Of a DNA stretch of 64,000 nt, positions 32,824 to 58,139 are shown piece by piece (position 1 is the first letter of the stretch; each line of letters opens with the position of its first letter). The DNA is from Thalassorhabdomicrobium marinisediminis (GTDB lineage: Bacteria; Pseudomonadota; Alphaproteobacteria; Rhodobacterales; Rhodobacteraceae). Where the stretch lies: positions 62,001 to 126,000 of the forward strand of contig NZ_QCYG01000002.1 of the NCBI RefSeq assembly GCF_003072065.1, in the 5' to 3' direction. Both the position numbers and the translations under genes were made by a program. The notes under the pieces are model-generated. The model made no database searches, was not told where the DNA came from, and saw only the letters and a program-made list of their open reading frames with translations.

Positions 32824-35800
32824 GTGATCTCAACCAGACGGGCGCAAATCATAGTTTTCCTGATCGGAGCGCTCGCTTCGATCGTGACCGTTTGGATGAT
32901 CCATCGGGCCGAGCAGGCCCAGAGCCATGCGCGGTTCGAACAGCTGGCCGATGACAATCTTGAGGTGTTGCAGGACCGGCTTGAGGGGTTCGACCGTGTG
33001 TTGGACGCGGGCGCGGGCCTGTTCGTGGCCTCGGACTTCGTGACGGCGGCGGATTTCCGCAACTTCACGCAAACGCTGAACCTGCAGGCGGAGCTGCCGG
33101 GTATTTTGGGGTTCGGCCATGTGGGCGTCGTCCGTCTGGGCGAGCTTGACGTGCTGGAAGAGCGGACCCAGCGACGCGGGTTGCCGCTTCCGCCGATCCA
33201 TCCGCCGAGCGGGCGGGCGGAACGTTTCGTCATTGAGATGATCGAACCGCGCGCGGGCAACGAAACCGCGCTGGGGCTGGACGTCGGGTTCGAGGCCGGA
33301 CGCCGTGCGGCACTGTTCGAGAGCCGGCGGAGCAATACGACGCGGATGACACCGCCCATCGTGCTGGTGCAGGACGAGGACGAGCGGGTCAGCTATGTGC
33401 TGTTCCGTCCGATCTTTGCCGAAGGCACGGACCTGAGCACCCGCCGCGGCCGCACCGCGGGTTTTCGCGGCTGGGTCCACATGCCATTTGTCGGAGAGAT
33501 GCTGTTCAACACGTTGTCGCGGACGGACACGGAATACGCCATGTTGACCGCGCTGGATGCGGACGCCACCGGCGAGGCGGTGACGGTCTATAGCGACGCA
33601 GCGGTAACGCAGCCCGAACGCTCGGCGTTTGCCACCAGCCGCGCGGCCGAGATCTTCGGGCGAAACTGGACGCTGAACTGGCACAGCACACCGGCCTTTG
33701 AAGCGGCCTATGGCAGCTGGACCAAATGGCTGATCGGGGCGCTGGGGCTGGCGCTGTCGGTGATGATCGCTCGCCTGCTGGGGATCGTCGCCCAGCGCGA
33801 GCGGCGCATCGAGAGCGAAGTGAAACGCAAAACGCGCGAGTTGCAGGCGAAGACGGATGAGACGCAGTCGGTGTTGCAAAACGCCGTGGTCGCCATTTTT
33901 GTGCTGGACCAGAACCAGCGCATCCTGTCGGCCAACCAGACCGCGCATGAACTGTTCCGGCTGGAGCATATCGCGGTGGGCACGCCGCTGCGGGATCTGC
34001 TGAACCTCGACCCCTGCGACGGCACCTCGGACGAAGAGGCCACGTCCGCACGCTCGCCCCTGCGGCCATCGCTGCGTCTGCTGGTGCAAAAGAACCTGTG
34101 GGAAACCGCCCGCGGTGAGCCGCGGGCCACGGTTCTGGTGCAGGATGTCGGCGAACGCGAGGCCGCCGCCCGCCGCATCAAGGCCAATGAAGCGCGCTGG
34201 AATCTGGCGCTTGAGGGGGCGCAGATCGGCGTGTTCGACGTGGATCTGATGACCAACACCTCGGTCGTTTCGGACACCTGGCGCGAGCTGATGCGGATTT
34301 CGCCCGATGAAGAGGACCCGCAAGCGGTCTTCTTCTCGCGCATCCACCCCGAAGATATCGAGATCGTGCGTCAGGCGGACAGAGCTTGTCGGGACGGGCT
34401 GACGCGGCGGTCGCGGGCGGAATATCGGGTGATCGACGAAGACGGGTCGGTGCGCTGGATGAAGGCGGACGCGGTGGTTGTGTCCCGCGACGCGGCGGGC
34501 ACCGCGCTGCGGCTGATCGGGGCGCAGATGGACATCACCGACCTGCGCGCCACGCAGGACGCCTTGCAGGCCAGCCGCGAACGATTCGAACTGGTGCTCA
34601 AACATGCGCCGGTCGGCACCGCCTTGCTGTCCAGCGACGGGCGGCTGATCAACATGAACGAGGCTCTGTGCAGCCTGACCGGCTATTCGGAAGAGACGTT
34701 GCGCAAGCGGATGACCTTTGCTGACCTGATCACCGAGGAGGACCTGCAAACGATGCTGGAGGCGATTGCCGACCTGCGGGCGCAGGGGCAGTCGTCCTAT
34801 GAGGGCGAACACCAGATCCTGCCGCGCGTCGGTGCGCCGATCTGGGGGCTGCTGTCGGTCGCCTGGGCGTTCGACCCGATCGAGCAGGGCGAGATCTATA
34901 TCGTCCAGATCAACGACATCACCGAAAAGAAGATGGTCGATACGCTCAAGTCCGAGTTCGTCGCCACCGTGAGCCACGAACTGCGCACGCCGCTGACCTC
35001 GGTCAAGGGGGCGTTGGGGCTGCTGCGGGGGCCGATGCTGCCGGCGATGCCTGACGGCTCTGACCGGCTGCTGGAAATCGCGGCGAGCAATACCGACCGG
35101 CTGACGGCGCTGGTGAACGACATCCTCGATCTTGAGAAGATCAGCTCGGGCCAGAGCCAGTTCCAGATCGAGCCGACGGACATGGCCCCTGTGCTCTCGG
35201 CCAGTGTCGAGCAGATGCTGCCCTTTGCCGTGCAGCATCATGTCACCGTTGAGCTGGACGTGCCCAACGATCCCGTCTTTGCGCTGGTGGACGCGCCGCG
35301 CACGCAGCAATTGATCGCCAACCTTGTGTCGAATGCGTGCAAATATTCCGACAACGACACGGTCGTGCATGTGCGGCTTGAGGCGGTGGACGGCAAGGCG
35401 CTGGTCTGCGTCCTCAACACCGGGCCTGCGATCACCAACGAGTTCAAGACCCGCATTTTCGAACCCTTCTCGCAAGAGGATGCCTCGGACACGCGGGCGA
35501 AGGGGGGCACCGGGTTGGGTCTCAACATCTCGCGCCAGATTGTCGAACGGATGGGCGGCGAGATCGGCTTTTCCAGCGTCGAGGGGCAGCCGACCGCCTT
35601 CTGGTTCACCGTGCCGCTGACCGATGAGGACACGAGCCAACCGGTGCCTGCCAACACAGACAAGGCGGACGGGCCGCATTTCAAGGTGTTGCATCTTGAG
35701 GATGACCGCGACTTTGCCGAGATCGTCCGAAAGGGGCTGGGCGATCGGGCGCAGATGACCTCGGTCATGACGATTGCGGCCGCGCGGATCGCGATGCAGG

Positions 35801-36024
35801 CGGACACTTTCGATCTGGTGGTGATCGACTGGGACCTGCCCGACGGGCACGGGGGCGAACTTCTGGACGATGTGGGGCGGCTGCAACCGCAGGCGCGGAT
35901 CATCTCTCTCTCGGCCACGGAATCGAGCGTGCGCGACCTGCGGGTGGATCAGGAGATCATCAAGTCCCGCGCCAATCTGGACGACATTGTTAGTCGCATG
36001 GTCAGATATGCCCGGACCGGTTAA
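32824..36024 (+). CDS. CHASE/PAS hybrid sensor histidine kinase with receiver
   Basis: The 1066-residue product has a membrane helix at ~9-27, an extracellular CHASE-type region to ~300 and a second helix at ~301-322. Three PAS-like domains follow (~345-420, ~455-570, ~585-700). The HisKA domain has H near 717 in VSHELRTPLTSVKG. The ATPase has NLVSNACKYS and GGTGLGLNIS. A C-terminal receiver (~955-1060) has VVIDWDLPDGHGG with the phospho-acceptor Asp near 1001. It probably senses an extracytoplasmic small molecule. GTG is the start, with GTTGAA upstream. It is the first gene of a phosphorelay cluster. Confidence 0.9.
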   Translation: MISTRRAQIIVFLIGALASIVTVWMIHRAEQAQSHARFEQLADDNLEVLQDRLEGFDRVLDAGAGLFVASDFVTAADFRNFTQTLNLQAELPGILGFGHVGVVRLGELDVLEERTQRRGLPLPPIHPPSGRAERFVIEMIEPRAGNETALGLDVGFEAGRRAALFESRRSNTTRMTPPIVLVQDEDERVSYVLFRPIFAEGTDLSTRRGRTAGFRGWVHMPFVGEMLFNTLSRTDTEYAMLTALDADATGEAVTVYSDAAVTQPERSAFATSRAAEIFGRNWTLNWHSTPAFEAAYGSWTKWLIGALGLALSVMIARLLGIVAQRERRIESEVKRKTRELQAKTDETQSVLQNAVVAIFVLDQNQRILSANQTAHELFRLEHIAVGTPLRDLLNLDPCDGTSDEEATSARSPLRPSLRLLVQKNLWETARGEPRATVLVQDVGEREAAARRIKANEARWNLALEGAQIGVFDVDLMTNTSVVSDTWRELMRISPDEEDPQAVFFSRIHPEDIEIVRQADRACRDGLTRRSRAEYRVIDEDGSVRWMKADAVVVSRDAAGTALRLIGAQMDITDLRATQDALQASRERFELVLKHAPVGTALLSSDGRLINMNEALCSLTGYSEETLRKRMTFADLITEEDLQTMLEAIADLRAQGQSSYEGEHQILPRVGAPIWGLLSVAWAFDPIEQGEIYIVQINDITEKKMVDTLKSEFVATVSHELRTPLTSVKGALGLLRGPMLPAMPDGSDRLLEIAASNTDRLTALVNDILDLEKISSGQSQFQIEPTDMAPVLSASVEQMLPFAVQHHVTVELDVPNDPVFALVDAPRTQQLIANLVSNACKYSDNDTVVHVRLEAVDGKALVCVLNTGPAITNEFKTRIFEPFSQEDASDTRAKGGTGLGLNISRQIVERMGGEIGFSSVEGQPTAFWFTVPLTDEDTSQPVPANTDKADGPHFKVLHLEDDRDFAEIVRKGLGDRAQMTSVMTIAAARIAMQADTFDLVVIDWDLPDGHGGELLDDVGRLQPQARIISLSATESSVRDLRVDQEIIKSRANLDDIVSRMVRYARTG

Positions 36025-36154
36025 CCAAAATGGCCTATTCCTTCCCGAATAAGAACACATTTGGCTTCTAGCTTTCATAGCACGGCCCATATCGGGGCCG
36101 CTTGGACCGACAGGTTTTTTCCTGTTCCGAGTGAATTGTTTTTGAGGTGTTACA

Positions 36155-37255
36155 TTGGCAAACGAGGCAGAAAACGCATTACCGCTGCCAATGCAGGAGG
36201 CCTGGACGATCCTGGATCGGCAGCCCGACCCTGTGTTGGTGTTCGATGGACAGACCCACGCCGTAAGGTTTCAGAATCGGGCCGCCGCGCGGCTGGCCGG
36301 ACAGTCGGCCGCAGCAGGCGTGCCGCTCGCGGACTTGTGCGGCTGGTTGAGGATGTCCGCCGCGAAAGTGGCAACGTTGCTTGAGACGATGGACGCCGAG
36401 TCGGCGCCGAAACACCTTGAGGTCAGCCATTGTGACGCGCATTTCGACGTCACCGTGCAACTGCCCGGGCTTTCGGGCTTTCCCGACCAGATTGTTGCCG
36501 CCTTCCATGACATCACCGAACGGCGCAACGCCGAACGCCAGAAACAAGAGCTGGTCTCAACCGTGAGCCATGAGCTGCGCTCCCCTCTGACGGCGATCAA
36601 GGGGGCCATGGGGCTGGTGCTGGCGGGCTCTGCCGGGGCCCTGCCCGAACGGGCACGGGATATGGTGCAGATCGCCCATCGCAACGCCAACCGGCTGATC
36701 CTGATCATCAACGACATCCTGGATCTGGACAAGATCGCCGACGGCGCGATGGTTTTCGACAATGCCCACACCCCGCTGGTGGAGGTGATCGACGCCGCGG
36801 TTGAAGCCGTGGCGGGCTATCGCCAGCGCTTCGACGTGAAGGCAGATCTGGTGATCGAGGCCCGCGACGCCGTGGCCTTCATCGACCCCAACCGGCTGGT
36901 GCAGGTGCTTGTGAACCTGCTGTCCAACGCCATCAAATTCTCCCCCGCCGGGGCTGCCGTGACCGTGCGCCTGCAAGACAACGGCGCGTTCAACCGGATC
37001 AGTGTCACCGACCGGGGCGAAGGCATTCCCGCCTCCGAGCAGCGTTTCTTGTTCGACCGCTTCGTGCAGATCGGAACCCGCAACCGCGCGGCCACCGGCG
37101 GCACCGGTCTGGGTCTGAGCATCGTTCAAGCGATTCTTGACAAGCAGAACGGTCATATCACCTTCACCAGTCAGGTGGGGGTCGGCACGACATTCCACGT
37201 TGACCTTCCCAAACCAGACGCTGTCCCCGACAGCGATATTCCCAAAGCAGGATAG
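36155..37255 (+). CDS. PAS-domain sensor histidine kinase
   Basis: The 366-residue product is soluble, with no membrane helix. It has a PAS domain at ~20-130 and then HisKA with H139 in VSTVSHELRSPLTAIKG. The ATPase domain has NLLSNAIKFS, GEGIPASEQRFLFDRF and GGTGLGLSIV. A TTG start at 36155 is supported by TGAGGTG just upstream. It lies five bases before the single-domain receiver gene, which suggests that receiver is its direct partner. Confidence 0.9.
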   Translation: MANEAENALPLPMQEAWTILDRQPDPVLVFDGQTHAVRFQNRAAARLAGQSAAAGVPLADLCGWLRMSAAKVATLLETMDAESAPKHLEVSHCDAHFDVTVQLPGLSGFPDQIVAAFHDITERRNAERQKQELVSTVSHELRSPLTAIKGAMGLVLAGSAGALPERARDMVQIAHRNANRLILIINDILDLDKIADGAMVFDNAHTPLVEVIDAAVEAVAGYRQRFDVKADLVIEARDAVAFIDPNRLVQVLVNLLSNAIKFSPAGAAVTVRLQDNGAFNRISVTDRGEGIPASEQRFLFDRFVQIGTRNRAATGGTGLGLSIVQAILDKQNGHITFTSQVGVGTTFHVDLPKPDAVPDSDIPKAG

Positions 37256-37260
37256 GCCCC

Positions 37261-37635
37261 ATGAAGATTTTTCACGTCGAAGATGATGCAGACATCCGCG
37301 AAATTGCCCGCATGTCCCTTGAGATGGTCGGCGGGTTCCACGTCGATCAATACGAACACGCGGATGCCGCCCTTGCGGTGGCGGCAGAGGCCCGGCCGGA
37401 TGTGCTTTTGCTTGACGTGATGATGCCCGGCATGACCGGGCCACAGCTTCTGGCCGAGCTGCGCAAGATGGATCACATGGCCCACGTGCCCGCGATCTAT
37501 ATGACCGCGCGGGTCCAGCCGCAAGAGATCGAGGCGTTCAAGAAGACCGGCGCCGTGGGCGTTATCCTCAAGCCGTTCGATCCGGTGACGCTGGGGCAGG
37601 AGATCACCGAGATGCTGCAAAGCAAGGCCGCCTGA
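37261..37635 (+). CDS. Single-domain response regulator (receiver only)
   Basis: The 124-residue product is a CheY-like receiver: acidic pair in FHVEDDADIREIA, phospho-acceptor D52 in LLLDVMMPGMTG, Thr/Tyr switch in IYMTARV and K104 in ILKPFDP. It has no output domain, so it acts in phosphotransfer or by protein contact. It is co-transcribed with the upstream kinase and followed by a terminator. Confidence 0.93.
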   Translation: MKIFHVEDDADIREIARMSLEMVGGFHVDQYEHADAALAVAAEARPDVLLLDVMMPGMTGPQLLAELRKMDHMAHVPAIYMTARVQPQEIEAFKKTGAVGVILKPFDPVTLGQEITEMLQSKAA

Positions 37636-37665
37636 GGCCGCCGCGCAGCGACAGACCGATTGGAC

Positions 37666-37689
37666 AGGGGCCCCTTGCGGGGCCCTTTT
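37666..37689 (+). terminator. Terminator after the receiver gene
   Basis: AGGGGCCCC pairs with GGGGCCCTT around TTGC, followed by a T run. It ends the kinase-receiver transcript. Confidence 0.85.
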
Positions 37690-37856
37690 GGTGTGTGGAG
37701 GGGGTGGGCGTGAGGGTTCGGTCCGCAACGATTTGCGTGGCGCGCCAAGGCTAGCGGTGCAGCAAAGGGGTGAGAGCCGTGCCGCCGAGGTCGCGGAAGG
37801 GCTGGAACACGTCCACGGGGCTGAAGGGAGGTTGTCCGGGGGACGGCAAACACGAA

Positions 37857-37884
37857 AACACCGCTGCCGGGGGGGCAGCGGTGC
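37857..37884 (-). terminator. Terminator of the Hpt operon
   Basis: On the minus strand ACACCGCTGCC pairs with GGCAGCGGTGT around a C-rich loop, followed by TTTT. It lies about 20 bases after the Hpt stop. The 271-base gap at 37636-37906 holds this and the opposing terminator. A short open frame at 37688-37900 has no support. Confidence 0.85.
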
Positions 37885-37906
37885 TGTCTGTCTGATGTGA
37901 CCTGGC

Positions 37907-38245
37907 TCAGGTGGCGGGGTCGAGGATGTCCAGCGCGGCTTCCAGCACGTCGATGATCAGCATGTAAACCGGCGTAGCGGGGCCGCTGGGGGCGTCGAGC
38001 AAGTCGGCAATGGCGTATTCGGCGCGGCGCGCGCGGTCGCCAAGGTCGGCAAAGCCCAGCGTGCCCGAGGTGCCGGCGATCTTGTGCAGATCGGCCATGA
38101 TCCGCTCGAGCGCGGGGCCGGCGCGTTCGGGGTGGGCAAAGACGAATTCCAGATCGGCGTGGATCGCGGTCTGGCGCGCGTCCAGCAAGTCGAGAAACCG
38201 GCTGCGGATCGGGGCGAGACCGTCAGAGATGGCGAGCGCGCTCAT
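37907..38245 (-). CDS. Histidine phosphotransfer (Hpt) domain protein
   Basis: The 112-residue product is a stand-alone Hpt domain, with the phosphorylated His at H54 in LHKIAGTSGTLGFADLGDRA. Hpt proteins relay phosphate between receivers. It overlaps the upstream receiver gene in an ATGA, so the two are produced together. It could link the hybrid kinase's receiver to a downstream regulator. Confidence 0.88.
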   Translation of the reverse strand: MSALAISDGLAPIRSRFLDLLDARQTAIHADLEFVFAHPERAGPALERIMADLHKIAGTSGTLGFADLGDRARRAEYAIADLLDAPSGPATPVYMLIIDVLEAALDILDPAT

Positions 38246-39234
38246 GCGACGCTGTGCGAGACGGTCCAGATGCTGCCCATGTCACGGGTCAGACGATCTG
38301 CGGCCTCTTCCGCGCTGATATGAGCCTGATGCAGGGCGTCGATGGCACTGTCGCCCTTGCGCCAGATCAGGCGCGCCGGACGACCGGCACAGACGCGGAT
38401 GTTCAGCGCCGTGCCATCGCTGGCAGAAAGCTCCATCGCGTTGATGTAAAGGTTGATGTGGTCGACCAACCGCTCCATGTCGATCTGCGCCGCCCCTTCG
38501 ACGACACAGACAAAGGTGCCGTTGCCCGCGTATGAGACGAGACGATGCGTCGGCAGCAGGCAGTCGGCGATGGCTTCGCTGACATCGGTGACGACGCAGG
38601 TGAAATCATAGGGCGACAGGCAGGCATGCAGGTCGGCGATGTGGCGGATGGTGAAGGCCATCACGACCGAGCCGCACAGCGACTTGCGCGACAGTTGGGT
38701 GACGTAGTTCTCCATCGCGGAGTTCTCGATCACGCCCTCGACGTCGTAGATCGGCAGCGGCTGGTGCAGGTCGATCGTCATCTCGTCAGCGAGATCGTCC
38801 GGCGACATGCCCAGAAGCGCCTGCGTGGCGTAGGTCTGGCTGGTTGGTTCGCGCTGCTCGCGGGCGATCTGTTCGACGAGGCTCAGACGGCCCTTGAGGC
38901 TGTTGAGCTCGAACGGCTTGGTGATGTAATCGCTGGCCCCGGCGGCGAAGGCGCTGTCGATGTGGCCCTTGTCGGCCATCGCCGTGAGCATCAGGATCGG
39001 CGTCGTGCGGTAGCGGTCGGTGCCGCGCAGGATCTTGCACAATTCGATGCCGTCGGTGCCGGGCATGACGATGTCGAGCAGGAAACAGTCGAAGGGCTGT
39101 TCGGGCTTGACCATCAGCCCCAGCGCATCGGTGACCGAGAGGGCCGTAGTCACGGTATGCTCGGGCATGTCCTCGATGAAATGGGTCAACAGATCCAGAA
39201 TGATCGGGTCGTCGTCTACCGCCAGAATATGCAT
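38242..39234 (-). CDS. Response regulator with degenerate GGDEF-like output
   Basis: The 330-residue product has a receiver at ~1-120: VDDDPIILDLL, phospho-acceptor D54 in FLLDIVMPGTDG and K106 in ITKPFEL. The C-terminal ~200 residues look like a degenerate GGDEF fold, with AGNGTF in place of GGEEF. It is unlikely to make cyclic-di-GMP, though it might bind a nucleotide. The ATG at 39234 has AAGGACGGC upstream. It overlaps the Hpt gene and has a CtrA-type site ~100 bases upstream. Confidence 0.82.
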   Translation of the reverse strand: MHILAVDDDPIILDLLTHFIEDMPEHTVTTALSVTDALGLMVKPEQPFDCFLLDIVMPGTDGIELCKILRGTDRYRTTPILMLTAMADKGHIDSAFAAGASDYITKPFELNSLKGRLSLVEQIAREQREPTSQTYATQALLGMSPDDLADEMTIDLHQPLPIYDVEGVIENSAMENYVTQLSRKSLCGSVVMAFTIRHIADLHACLSPYDFTCVVTDVSEAIADCLLPTHRLVSYAGNGTFVCVVEGAAQIDMERLVDHINLYINAMELSASDGTALNIRVCAGRPARLIWRKGDSAIDALHQAHISAEEAADRLTRDMGSIWTVSHSVA

Positions 39235-39312
39235 TTTCGCCGTCCTTGAAACGTTACGCTCACATCGCAATCCGCCCGCACCGTGGGGAACTACAGGTTG
39301 CAATCTCTAGGT

Positions 39313-51296: not shown

Positions 51297-53834
<2,538 letters not shown>

Positions 53835-54947
53835 TCAGCCCACCGTCCGCACGTCCGACTGCTGGTCGGTTTCGGTGACTTCGACGTATTGCGCGCGGGC
53901 GCCCAGCGCGTCGAACAGATCGCGTTCGGTGCCCGTCATGAAGGCCTGCGCCCCCAGCGCCGAAATCTCGTCATAAAGCGCGGCGCGGCGGGCGGCGTCG
54001 AGATGGGCGGCCACCTCATCGAGCAGAAGCACCGGCGGCGCGCCGAAGTCGGCCGCAAGGGCGCGGGCGTTGGCGAGGATCAGCGAGATCAGCAGCGCCT
54101 TCTGCTCTCCGGTGGAGCAGTCTTTCGCCGCGACGTCTTTGGCCGCATAGATCGCCCCCAGATCGGCCCGGTGCGGCCCCACGAGCGTGCGCCCCGCCGC
54201 CATGTCGCGCGGTCGGCTGGCGGCGAGGGCTTCAGCCAGCGCGCCAGCCTCCTGCGGTGTCTCACAGGCAGGCTCGGCGTGGGTCAACGACAGGCTGGCC
54301 ACGGGAAAGGCGGTCTCGGCCTCGGCCTGCGCCTGCTCCAGCAGCGACAGCGCCCGGGTGCGGTTGCGGTGGATCTGCGCGCCGGCGTCCGCCATCTGCT
54401 TCTCGAGCGCGCCGTACCAATGGGCATCGCGCACCATGTCTTTCAGCAGCCGGTTGCGTTCGCGCATGGCCTTTTCATAGGTCAGCACAGTGTCCCCGTG
54501 GCTTGGTTCGAATGACAGGGTAGCGCGGTCCAGAAACCGCCGCCGCCCTTCGGCCCCCTCGATCCACAGCCGGTCCATTGAGGGGATCAGCCAGAGCACG
54601 CGGGCGATCCGGCCCAGCGCGGCCTGCGCTGCAGCCTTGCCGTCGATCCGGGTCTGGCGCGCGGCACCGCCTTGGGACCAGGTCTCGATCTCGTGCGCCC
54701 GCCCCAGCGAGGTCACATCCGCGCGCACTTTCCAGCCCACCGCCTCGGGCCGCCGCGTCATCTCTTCCGAGCTGGCCCGCCGCAAGCCGCGCCCGGGCGA
54801 CAGGATCGACACGGCCTCAAGCACGTTGGTCTTGCCCGCCCCATTGGGTCCGAAAATCGCCACCGGCCGCCCGTCCAGCTCAAGCGCCGCACGCCGGTGC
54901 GAGCGGAAATGCGACAGGGTCAGCGAAGATAGAAAAAGGGCCGACAT
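53835..54947 (-). CDS. recF: DNA replication and repair protein RecF
   Basis: RecF binds DNA gaps and helps load RecA. The 370-residue product has Walker A FGPNGAGKTNVLEAVSIL, the ABC-like signature CSTGEQKALLISLILANA and Walker B PPVLLLDEVAAHLD. It lies between dnaN and gyrB in the usual order. Confidence 0.95.
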   Translation of the reverse strand: MSALFLSSLTLSHFRSHRRAALELDGRPVAIFGPNGAGKTNVLEAVSILSPGRGLRRASSEEMTRRPEAVGWKVRADVTSLGRAHEIETWSQGGAARQTRIDGKAAAQAALGRIARVLWLIPSMDRLWIEGAEGRRRFLDRATLSFEPSHGDTVLTYEKAMRERNRLLKDMVRDAHWYGALEKQMADAGAQIHRNRTRALSLLEQAQAEAETAFPVASLSLTHAEPACETPQEAGALAEALAASRPRDMAAGRTLVGPHRADLGAIYAAKDVAAKDCSTGEQKALLISLILANARALAADFGAPPVLLLDEVAAHLDAARRAALYDEISALGAQAFMTGTERDLFDALGARAQYVEVTETDQQSDVRTVG

Positions 54948-55001
54948 TATGCGCGGCCCTCCTTCTTCATCTGACTGAATAAACTCAAATCCGACAGCGG
55001 A

Positions 55002-56120
55002 TCACACCCGCATCGGCATGACGACGTAAACCGCGCTGGTGTCATTGCCTTCGCGCATCAACGTGGGATCGCCGGAAGAATTGAACATGAACACGGCATT
55101 CTCGCGGTCCACCTGACTTGCGATTTCCAGCAGGTATTTCGCGTTGAAGCCGATCTCGAGCCGCTCATCGCCATAGGCCACGGCGAGTTCTTCTTCCGCC
55201 GCACCGGTGTCTGGCGCGTTGACCGACAGGATCAGGCGATCTTCGTCCAACTGCAGCTTCACCGCGCGGGACCGGTCCGAGGCGACGGTGGCCACGCGGT
55301 CCACGGCCTTGGCGAATTCGGCGGCGTCCACTTCCATCTTGCGGGTGTTGCCTTGGGGAATCACGCGGGTGTAGTCAGGGAAGGTGCCGTCGATCACCTT
55401 GGACGTCAGGGTGATGTCGGGGGTGGCGAACCGGATCTTGGTCTCGGACACCGAAACCGCGATCTGCATCTCGTCATCATCGAGCAGCTTGCGCAGCTCG
55501 CCCACGGTCTTGCGCGGCACGATGACGCCCGCCATGGCTTCTGCCCCTTCGGGCAGATCGGCATCGACGCGGGCCAGCCGGTGCCCGTCAGTCGCCACGC
55601 AGCGCAGCACCTTGCCGCCATCGGCGTCGGCCACATGCATGTAAACGCCGTTGAGGTAATAGCGCGTCTCTTCGGTCGAGATGGCGAACTTGGATTTGTC
55701 GAACAGGCGGCGCAGCACCGGTGCGGGGGCCGAGAAGTTGGCCGCGTAATCAGACGTCGCCATCACCGGAAAATCTTCTTTCGGAAGGGTGGCGAGCGAA
55801 AAGTTCGAGCGCCCCGCCTCGATCGTCAGCCGGCCCGACGCGCCGTCCTCGGTCAGGGACACCAGCGCGCCGTCGGGCAGCTTGCGGACAATTTCGTTCA
55901 GGGTGACGGCGGAAACGGTGGTGGCTCCCGCCCGTTCCACCTGCGCCGGGGCGGTGTCGACCACTTCGATATCAAGGTCGGTGGCGCGGAAGGTGGCGGT
56001 CGACCCCTCGGCCTCGATCAACACGTTGGCGAGGATCGGGATGGTGTTGCGCCGCTCCACAACCGACTGGGCTTGCGCCACGGCCTTGAGCAGTGTTGCG
56101 CGTTCGATGCTGAGTTTCAT
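55002..56120 (-). CDS. dnaN: DNA polymerase III beta sliding clamp
   Basis: DnaN is the sliding clamp. The 372-residue product has the three-fold repeated fold and starts MKLSIERATLLKAVAQAQSV. It has YYLNGVYMHVADADGGKVLR and the C-terminal TSAVYVVMPMRV. It follows dnaA by about 130 bases. Confidence 0.97.
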   Translation of the reverse strand: MKLSIERATLLKAVAQAQSVVERRNTIPILANVLIEAEGSTATFRATDLDIEVVDTAPAQVERAGATTVSAVTLNEIVRKLPDGALVSLTEDGASGRLTIEAGRSNFSLATLPKEDFPVMATSDYAANFSAPAPVLRRLFDKSKFAISTEETRYYLNGVYMHVADADGGKVLRCVATDGHRLARVDADLPEGAEAMAGVIVPRKTVGELRKLLDDDEMQIAVSVSETKIRFATPDITLTSKVIDGTFPDYTRVIPQGNTRKMEVDAAEFAKAVDRVATVASDRSRAVKLQLDEDRLILSVNAPDTGAAEEELAVAYGDERLEIGFNAKYLLEIASQVDRENAVFMFNSSGDPTLMREGNDTSAVYVVMPMRV

Positions 56121-56251
56121 GGCCGTGATCTCCGATTGTCTTGCCCGCAGTGTGTCGGGAAGGCGAAACTACCCGTTTCGCCCGCGTTCACAAGCATTTT
56201 GTGGAGGGTTGCGGCCCCCGTGGCAAGGGGCCGGGCATCCGGGCCGCCGCT

Positions 56252-57571
56252 TTAGTCTTCCAGCGCGCGGCGCAGCAGTTCCAGATCGTCGGCAATCTGG
56301 CTGTCGGACTGGCGCAATTCGTCGATCTTGCGCACCCCGTGCATGATGGTCGTGTGATCGCGCTTGCCAAATTTGCGGCCGATCTCGGGCAGGCTGCGGG
56401 TGGTCATCTGCTTGCACAGCCACATGGCCACTTGCCGCGGCCGGGCCAGCGTGCGCGTGCGCTTGGGGCCCAGCATATCGGACAGGCGGATGTCGTAGTG
56501 CTCGGACACCTTGCGCTGGATTTCTTCGATGGTGAGCTTGCGATCCGAGGCGCGCAGGATGTCGCTGAGGCAATCCTGCGCCATCTCGACCGTGACCGTG
56601 CGCCCGACGAGAGAGGCGAGCGCATAGAGGCGGTTCAACGCCCCTTCCAGCACGCGCACGTTGCTTGAGATGCGGTGCGCAAGGAATTCCAGCACGCCGG
56701 GGGCGATGTCCACGCCGGGATAGACGTTCAGATAGGTTTCCTGCTTGGCGTGCAACACGCCAAGGCGCAGTTCGTAATCGGTGGGGTGCAGATCGACGAC
56801 AAGGCCGCACTGCAGGCGCGACTTGATCCGCTCGCTCAGATCGCGGATTTCACCGGGCGCACGGTCGGCCGAGATGATGAGCTGTTTGTTCTGGTCCACA
56901 AGCGCGTTGAACGTGTGGAAGAATTCCTCTTGCGTGGATTCCTTGCCTTCAAGGAACTGGATGTCATCGACCATCAGGATGTCGACCGACCGGAAGTGCT
57001 GCTTGAAGTCCATCATCTTGCGGTCGCGCAGGGCCGAAATGAAGCGATAGATGAACTGGTCAGCCGAGATGTAGAGCACGTTGAGGTCCGGGCGACGCTG
57101 GCCCAGCTCATGGGCGATGGCGTGCATCAGGTGCGTCTTGCCCAAGCCGACGCCGCCGTACAGGAACAGCGGGTTGAAGGTGACGGGGCCGCCTTCGGCC
57201 ACGCGCTTGGCGGCGGCGTGGGCCAGCTCGTTCGGTTTGCCGACGACGAAATTGTCGAAGGTGAACCGCTGGTCGGGGCGGGCATCGGCGGCGGGGGTCA
57301 CGGCCTTGGGGGCGGCGGGCTTCTCAGGGGTGTTCGCGGCGCTTTCAACCTTGAAAGCCAGCCGCTGCACCGACAGCCCGTGCCGGTTGAGGTGATAGAT
57401 GATCTGGTCGCCATAGGTCTTGCTGACGTAATCACCGACAAAGGGGTTGGGCGCGGCCAGATGGGCGACGCCTTCATCGGTGGTGACAAGCGACAAAGGC
57501 TCGATCCAGCTTTTGAAATTGCCAGCGCCAATGGCGGACCGCATATCCGTTTTGACCTGTTCCCACTGCAT
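56252..57571 (-). CDS. dnaA: Chromosomal replication initiator DnaA
   Basis: DnaA opens the origin. The 439-residue product has the N-terminal helicase-interaction domain, a proline/alanine-rich linker, the AAA+ domain with LYGGVGLGKTHLMHAIAHEL and DVDILMVDDIQFLEGKEST-like Walker B, and the DnaA-box binding domain LPEIGRKFGKRDHTTIMHG. I chose ATG 57571 (MQWEQVK), with AAGGA eight bases before it. An ATG at 57580 sits directly on that site. Longer frames upstream are not family-like. Confidence 0.95.
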   Translation of the reverse strand: MQWEQVKTDMRSAIGAGNFKSWIEPLSLVTTDEGVAHLAAPNPFVGDYVSKTYGDQIIYHLNRHGLSVQRLAFKVESAANTPEKPAAPKAVTPAADARPDQRFTFDNFVVGKPNELAHAAAKRVAEGGPVTFNPLFLYGGVGLGKTHLMHAIAHELGQRRPDLNVLYISADQFIYRFISALRDRKMMDFKQHFRSVDILMVDDIQFLEGKESTQEEFFHTFNALVDQNKQLIISADRAPGEIRDLSERIKSRLQCGLVVDLHPTDYELRLGVLHAKQETYLNVYPGVDIAPGVLEFLAHRISSNVRVLEGALNRLYALASLVGRTVTVEMAQDCLSDILRASDRKLTIEEIQRKVSEHYDIRLSDMLGPKRTRTLARPRQVAMWLCKQMTTRSLPEIGRKFGKRDHTTIMHGVRKIDELRQSDSQIADDLELLRRALED

Positions 57572-58139
57572 CTTGCTCATCCTTGACCCCGATTGTCCCA
57601 GTCTGTGTTGTTCCAAACGGCGGAGTGATCCGCCCCTCGCACGAAACATCCGGTTCCACAGGACAGCAGGAGGCCACGCCGCAAAAGACATTGCGACCGC
57701 ACCACACACACTACTGTTTGCGCCAGCCGATAATCGGGTGAGGCCAAGGCCCACTCGAGGATCGGATACCGCAGATCCGTAGGATCACTTACGATCGACA
57801 GGTCCCACCCCGTCGATGTGTCATAAGCCTGACGCAGCTTTGCAGCCCTTGCCCAACGGTCTGGATTTCCCCAAGAAATCCTGTGTCGGGCCCGTTCGTC
57901 AGGTTCCCACGTCCCCCCAGGAACGAAATGAATCGATGGCTGAAACTAGCCCTGTGTCGCGCCTCTTTTCAACATCATTGGCACCCTTGACAGGACGGAA
58001 GATGAAACGAATCTGACGCCGCATTGAATCTCAACGAAAAGTCTTTTGCGGGCCTCGGAAAATGAGACCGGCACGAAAAAAGGCGCCGCCGAAGCGCCGC
58101 CTTTTTACCACAGAGTCGCGGGAATCGGTGAAGTCCGGC
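57572..58139. promoter_or_regulatory. dnaA upstream region with GANTC cluster
   Basis: This 568-base stretch between rpsT and dnaA holds no convincing gene. Three GANTC sites (GAATC) lie at 57930-57934, 58009-58013 and 58026-58030. They suggest CcrM-dependent control, known for dnaA in Caulobacter. Several GATC motifs occur near 57760-57800. I see no run of TTATCCACA-type DnaA boxes, so oriC is not evident here. A short open frame at 57816-58016 has no support. Confidence 0.5.
58076..58106 (-). terminator. Terminator of rpsT
   Basis: On the minus strand AAAAAGGCG pairs with CGCCTTTTT, with an inner CGC-TTCG-GCG tetraloop and one G-G mismatch, and T tracts on both ends. It lies 33 bases after the rpsT stop and could work in both directions. 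Confidence 0.9.

Follow-up and report, generated by a model that had tools for sequence, protein, structure and literature searches.

In a 64,000-nucleotide stretch of the genome of Thalassorhabdomicrobium marinisediminis (NZ_QCYG01000002.1, positions 62,001 to 126,000; hereafter the window; genome size 3.43 Mb) we describe a five-gene module which has the parts of a multi-step phosphorelay and which ends in an unusual response regulator. It is composed of two histidine kinases (HK1 and HK2), a lone receiver (REC), a histidine phosphotransfer protein (HPT) and a regulator, RRG, in which a receiver is joined to a degenerate GGDEF domain; these five open reading frames (ORFs) fill window positions 32824-39234, with HK1, HK2 and REC on the forward strand and RRG and HPT on the reverse strand (Table 1). 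We consider it rather probable that the phosphoryl group would pass from the kinases to the lone REC, from there to HPT and finally to RRG, and that the output would be a pseudo-cyclase. A first-pass annotation, made from the sequence alone, had proposed a five-gene phosphorelay cluster at this place, and all five ORFs are confirmed there, with the Pfam matches given below. The HisKA/HATPase_c kinases, the Hpt protein with its His and the two receivers with their Asp residues supply every station of a His-Asp-His-Asp chain; by its parts the module is a multi-step phosphorelay, with phosphotransfer between the parts predicted. As a phosphorelay it is of a known kind, from which it is set apart by its output domain, by an intermediate receiver that is probably a free protein and by its occurrence on plasmids.

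Recurrence of the module was addressed by searching genomes of its own family, 149 with RRG and 394 with a profile of the RRG C-terminal domain. The window was compared with 84 other loci: 40 among the matches listed by the RRG search, the genome's own RRG paralogue included, four from a search of the genus and 40 among the matches listed by the profile search. Counts are based on ORFs and hidden Markov model (HMM) matches, because codon-bias gene calls hold antisense miscalls in some loci. All 85 loci hold at least one RRG, giving a total of 102, and HPT lies within 6 kb of 63 of these. A lone REC was present within 9 kb of 58 of the 63 RRG genes with HPT, as against 5 of the 39 without it (Fisher p 1.7e-16). 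Because neighbouring RRG genes of one locus share partners, the count was also made on the first RRG of each locus only, which gave a lone REC in 51/55 with HPT and 3/30 without. In 40 of the 63 cases HPT sits on the same strand just downstream of RRG (gap -25 to +56 nt), and 51 of the 85 loci combine HPT with a lone REC and a kinase. The convergent arrangement to which the first-pass annotation had drawn attention, with REC and the HPT-RRG pair tail to tail, recurs in 22 of the 85 loci, the window included. At E <= 0.001 the genome has no PF01627 match other than the HPT of the window. Distances of the components agree with one another across 46 modules, with r values of 0.29-0.64 that each lie above 500 permutations and are uncorrected for species relatedness.

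The phosphate acceptors are invariant, both the Asp of the lone RECs (56/56) and of the RRGs (102/102) and the His of the HPTs (55/55, after exclusion of 2 of 57 ORFs, which were over 240 aa long). Evidence for the order of the two receivers comes from the switch position, three residues before the conserved Lys. Terminal receivers are described as being activated by Ser/Thr-Tyr/Phe coupling through an aromatic residue at this position, and in the set analysed Tyr is found there in all CtrA-type receivers and the residue varies in CckA-type intermediates (PMC9981736, in excerpt). The switch is aromatic, Tyr or Phe, in 102/102 RRGs, whereas it is non-aromatic in 51 of 56 lone RECs, with Val in 41; on this basis the lone REC is likely to be the intermediate and RRG the end point. 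When only loci with HPT are counted, an aromatic switch was seen in 1 of 36 lone RECs beside kinases in which no receiver was detected and in 3 of 18 beside hybrid kinases. The REC of the window has Val101 at the position of the Tyr or Phe of output receivers. The single-domain receivers MrrA, SdrG and Sma0114 are marked by a FATGUY-type motif where beta 4 ends (PMC9981736, in excerpt). This motif was not found here; the window REC has YMTAR at this place, and the residue after the Thr is Ala in 52 of the 56 lone RECs.

The small HPT protein matched PF01627 (Hpt) at 28.6 bits (cut-off 24.6) and is predicted to form a four-helix bundle with a predicted local distance difference test score (pLDDT) of 88. 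Foldseek gave no match at E <= 0.001 for this model; the top match was the P1 domain of CheA (1tqg, weak at E 0.01), followed by designed helix bundles at ranks 2-5.

We infer the following direction of phosphate flow. HK1, with a periplasmic CHASE sensor, and HK2, with a cytoplasmic PAS sensor, would autophosphorylate, and both would converge on the lone REC, which would act as a passive, Spo0F-like intermediate. HPT would then carry the phosphoryl group from REC to the receiver of RRG, where phosphorylation, read via the conserved Tyr switch, would alter the C-terminal GGDEF-derived domain. This pseudo-cyclase domain, with neither the cyclase motif nor the usual I-site, would be the output, and most likely it would bind another protein (e.g., a true diguanylate cyclase) or a ligand.

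The approximately 200 aa which follow the receiver of RRG gave no Pfam match at E <= 1 when the full window protein was searched, and RRG has no DNA-binding Pfam match, in line with the first-pass statement that the locus lacks a DNA-binding output; the best 25 of 97 NCBIfam matches are to regulator or kinase families that fit the receiver. A profile of 52 RRG C-terminal domains matched 23 entries of the PDB. DosC was the best of these (E 4.8e-5), and WspR is among the 23. GGDEF proteins occupy the top ten places, with E values under 0.001 for two and of 0.17 for the last of the ten. Profile-profile comparison with the six true GGDEF proteins of the genome gave E 3.1e-6 at a probability of 88%, and the alignment puts the YAGNGTF hairpin of RRG onto the GGEEF region. 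A GGDEF-type motif, G[GS][DE][EDQ][FY], was found after residue 130 in none of the 102 RRGs. The hairpin pattern xxGxGx[FY] is seen in 99 of 102 aligned rows and [YHC]xGxGx[FY] in 100 of 102 RRGs; in the profile comparison with the PDB the hairpin exceeds that of GGDEF proteins by one residue. The RxxD pattern of the I-site is not present in every true cyclase; within 12 residues upstream of the hairpin it was found in 2/100 RRGs as against 3/6 of the true GGDEF proteins of this genome. The profile matches indicate descent from GGDEF domains, and by its motif the domain is no cyclase; this agrees with the degenerate GGDEF-like protein of the first-pass annotation. We infer from these motifs that RRG probably signals by contact and not by making a messenger; an interaction with cyclic di-GMP (c-di-GMP) signalling is possible, given the six true GGDEF proteins encoded elsewhere in the genome. 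As a tentative proposal, which we hold to be somewhat less than probable, the domain may represent an output class for response regulators that is new and restricted to this lineage. RRG would then end in a pseudo-cyclase whose [YH]xGxGx[FY] hairpin has been lengthened; the relay that switches it would be carried in part on plasmids and open to different kinases, linked as well as unlinked, and its ligand or partner would be new for GGDEF proteins.

On the input side, the CHASE domain of HK1 was matched in Pfam at E 3.9e-35 and is flanked by two hydrophobic segments (residues 5-29 and 301-324), and the C-terminal receiver gave a weak match (32.5 bits, cut-off 30.2). For HK2, HisKA and HATPase_c were matched and PAS remained sub-threshold. 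HK1 had been called a hybrid kinase, which is true of the window but not constant in the family: HK1 of the same-genus locus L093 has no receiver, and other relatives retain it. By inspection of the tails by eye, the receiver is absent from 7 of the 15 CHASE-type kinases of the loci, and in a further 3 the acceptor Asp is replaced by Asn or Glu; on these losses the attached receiver of HK1 looks dispensable in the family. HK1 and HK2 agree at 9 of the 13 positions of the DHp recognition stretch. Two unlinked kinases of the genome, L150 and L155 (both on contig C31), have 11/13 and 10/13 of these residues as in HK1, and the remaining 16 kinases have 8/13 or fewer. Relatives of L150 are found near RRG genes in other genomes, and a 7TM-type kinase gene beside the module of L093 (L093:2-667, cut by the contig end) shows 57% identity to L155 over 214 aa. 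This resemblance to HK1 and the occurrence of relatives near RRG or the module elsewhere make inputs beyond the two local kinases likely, and to read the phosphorelay island of the first-pass annotation as self-contained is too strong.

With a receiver on HK1 a different course is conceivable, from the DHp domain of HK1 to its own receiver and on to HPT and RRG; HK2 or HPT would then feed the lone REC separately, as an output or a sink for phosphate. The receiver of the window HK1 has Asp1002, the two Pseudosulfitobacter plasmids described below retain an attached receiver with Asp, and among the attached receivers found by HMM the Asp is present in 21/21 and the Lys in 15/21. Furthermore, 17 of the 63 HPT-linked RRG genes are accompanied by a hybrid kinase as well as by a lone REC. 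However, for 40 of the 63 there is a lone REC and a kinase but no hybrid kinase detected within 9 kb; a kinase tail of over 80 aa is present in 14 of these 40, of which 9 are weakly receiver-like, so that in 31 of the 63 the lone REC and kinase stand without any receiver-like kinase tail that could be found. As 7 of the 15 CHASE-type kinases also have no receiver and 3 lack its Asp, we regard relay through the attached receiver as unlikely. The idea that a lone REC occurs only where the kinase has no receiver was rejected, as both are present for 17 RRG genes, with weak receiver-like tails for 9 more; with such co-occurrence the lone REC is not a simple substitute for the attached receiver, and some relays may use both.

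It is distinctly improbable that the flow is reversed, i.e., that the kinases phosphorylate RRG directly and HPT drains RRG~P to the lone REC as a sink or true output. Nineteen RRG genes with neither HPT nor lone REC nearby adjoin a kinase without a detected receiver, which suggests that kinases may serve RRG receivers directly, but the aromatic output-type switch is found in 102/102 RRGs against 5/56 lone RECs and only RRG has an output domain. The two convergent gene groups, each with a terminator-like site (one of them seen by eye), might also belong to separate systems that happen to adjoin: HK1/HK2-REC would form one, and HPT-RRG, served by unlinked kinases, the second. The genome does hold unlinked kinases of related type, and a Sulfitobacter plasmid carries an RRG-HPT pair with no annotated kinase nearby. 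Such a separation is very hard to reconcile with the strong co-occurrence of lone REC with HPT (58/63 versus 5/39) across many genomes and also on plasmids, and we give it little credence. The overall first-pass interpretation is partly supported, with the lone REC a more likely relay intermediate than the HK1 receiver.

A number of observations weigh against the order HK-REC-HPT-RRG with a GGDEF-derived output. The loci were selected by match strength, so that the sample leans to close relatives, and the distance correlations are, as given above, uncorrected for relatedness. The switch is aromatic in 5 of 56 lone RECs; moreover, CckA's own intermediate receiver has Phe at this position and the receivers of ShkA-type hybrid kinases resemble output receivers (PMC9981736, in excerpt). 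Our own control set for the switch residue consisted of one multi-domain regulator only, the single other one held by the loci, and the control therefore rests on PMC9981736. HK1 of the window has an intact-looking receiver, a lone REC is missing from the 9 kb around 5 of the 63 RRG genes with HPT, for 17 of 63 HPT and lone REC stand together with a hybrid kinase, and for 9 more of the 63 the kinase has a weak receiver-like tail. Within 8 kb of the RRG-HPT pair on the Sulfitobacter plasmid, one of 3 records inspected out of 90, there is neither an annotated kinase nor a lone receiver. As to the output, Pfam gives weak GGDEF matches for 2 of 52 single members, the best at E 0.056, and the AlphaFold2 model of RRG alone is useless (pLDDT 35); for this reason the assignment of the GGDEF fold rests on profiles.

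The distribution of the module is patchy and partly plasmid-borne, as 3 of 19 genomes of the genus match and plasmids in PLSDB carry it. The RRG C-terminal domain was found in 94 of the 394 own-family genomes and in 3 of 337 genomes of a class-level sample, all three of the same family, and a search of the genome collection with RRG returned two distant receiver matches only. As far as sampled, this phosphorelay family is limited to a single bacterial family, which is presumably the Rhodobacteraceae; the carriers known by name belong to the Roseobacteraceae, within the Rhodobacterales. The three positive genomes among the 19 of the genus, some of which are incomplete, are that of the window, L093 with the same five genes, and L094, where a truncated kinase sits amid transposase-like genes (by eye). 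In PLSDB 90 plasmid records match the C-terminal domain: 76 from Pseudosulfitobacter, 10 from Sulfitobacter, 2 from Loktanella and 2 from Roseivivax. Among the 3 records inspected, two Pseudosulfitobacter plasmids have all five genes of the module, annotated in generic terms, and a further regulator whose hairpin is of this kind too. The genome of the window also holds a second, divergent RRG paralogue (L034:8876-9790, G000:C32; 31% identity), with no Hpt, lone REC or kinase nearby. Two to three RRG-type genes per module, as if outputs had been duplicated, were seen in L043, L106, L098, L112, L168 and L170. RRG genes without HPT are often near a single kinase of ~460 aa (L051, L066, L069, L104, L111); near L051 there is a PP2C phosphatase and, by eye, GTPase-like genes.

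No recurrent neighbour that would convincingly name a function emerged from the 85 loci; non-signalling families are common to at most 17 of them, the commonest being an ABC transporter ATPase-like gene (by eye). Motility, one of the phenotypes that the first-pass annotation had named for a check, is unsupported as an output and was rejected for this organism, in whose genome no flagellin was found, other flagellar genes not having been sought. In four relatives (L063, L064, L070, L125) the module is near MotB-type genes by string match; in L063 both MotA and MotB are confirmed by Pfam and the module kinase has a phosphonate-binding-type domain.

Among known systems, the sporulation phosphorelay of Bacillus, Spo0F-Spo0B-Spo0A, is alike in having several kinases, a lone intermediate receiver, a phosphotransfer protein and a terminal receiver with an output. 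The HPT of the present module is predicted to be a single-chain four-helix bundle and not a Spo0B-type dimer, and the output is a degenerate GGDEF domain instead of a DNA-binding one. Spo0F is classed as a single-domain intermediate (PMC9981736, in excerpt), and the Spo0B-type dimer is mentioned in PMC11481889 (in excerpt). The CckA-ChpT-CtrA/CpdR pathway of alphaproteobacteria has the same four-step His-Asp-His-Asp design, with ChpT a kinase-like dimer. The present module has a PF01627 Hpt protein and a pseudo-cyclase output in place of a ChpT-type phosphotransferase and a DNA-binding output. In that pathway the intermediate receiver is part of CckA, and the regulator CtrA binds DNA (PMC9981736, in excerpt).

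RRG resembles PleD and WspR, the receiver-GGDEF diguanylate cyclases, in the fusion of a receiver to a domain of GGDEF descent, but with the active-site motif in 0/102 and RxxD in 2/100 it is not a canonical cyclase. PopA of Caulobacter, in which receivers are joined to a GGDEF-derived domain without cyclase function, has kept its I-site and binds c-di-GMP; RRG differs in having no I-site pattern and in its hairpin, which is one residue longer. HmrABCX of Caulobacter, composed of a hybrid kinase, two putative Hpt proteins (one atypical) and a membrane protein, likewise combines a kinase with small phosphotransfer proteins and has a c-di-GMP link and no DNA-binding regulator, but no lone receiver or receiver-pseudo-GGDEF protein is named for it in the excerpted text of PMC11481889. 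A further Hpt protein, Dshi_3484 of Dinoroseobacter, adjoins a receiver-SpoIIE type protein (PMC6473078, in excerpt), a system which differs from the present module. The excerpted texts of PMC9756655 and PMC6473078 do not mention the module. The first-pass suggestion that the system is undescribed holds in that we recognised no matching description within the literature searched, which left most subscription papers outside and included one list of the best 20 of 469 records.

Table 1. Genes and sequence features of the module (window positions).
Feature	Position	Strand	Description
HK1	32824..36024	+	Membrane kinase, CHASE / PAS x3 / HisKA / HATPase_c, with C-terminal receiver; 1066 aa; phospho-His 718 at 34975-34977, receiver Asp 1002 at 35827-35829
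HK2	36155..37255	+	PAS-HisKA-HATPase kinase without hydrophobic segment; 366 aa; phospho-His 139 at 36569-36571
REC	37261..37635	+	Lone receiver; 124 aa; starts 5 nt past HK2; Asp52 at 37414-37416, Lys104
Terminator-like hairpin and TTTT, 3' of REC	37668..37689	+	By eye only; absent from terminator scan list
Terminator-like hairpin, 3' of HPT	37857..37885	-	12 pairs; terminator scan
HPT	37907..38245	-	Hpt protein; 112 aa; start overlaps RRG stop by 4 nt; phospho-His54 at 38084-38086
RRG	38242..39234	-	Receiver and degenerate GGDEF domain; 330 aa; Asp54 at 39073-39075, switch Tyr103, Lys106
YAGNGTF hairpin in RRG	38512..38532	-	At the GGDEF/GGEEF position of diguanylate cyclases

The convergent gap holds two terminator-like sites, of which the scan gave that on the HPT side and that on the REC side was recognised by eye. 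For RRG the ATG at 39234, with AAGGA just upstream (by eye), is preferred as the start over the 39303 previously given. The module follows trmD in this genome (31702-32824), and rplS is on another contig (C19); in the same-genus loci that were read (L084-L092) trmD and rplS share a contig and are separated by ~1 to 9 kb with a varying set of genes. ORFs resembling gyrB, recF, dnaN and dnaA, recognised by eye without a search, are present at 51297-57754, so that the window is apparently near the replication origin.

With these data five generically annotated genes become a defined signalling family, found also on plasmids of cultured marine strains; Pseudosulfitobacter sp. DSM 107133 is among its cultured marine carriers. 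The module offers a testable case of a relay with a free intermediate receiver and a GGDEF-fold output that has neither cyclase motif nor I-site, and it suggests that a kinase-attached receiver can decay or vanish while the other relay parts persist. It thereby has a bearing on the role of degenerate GGDEF domains.

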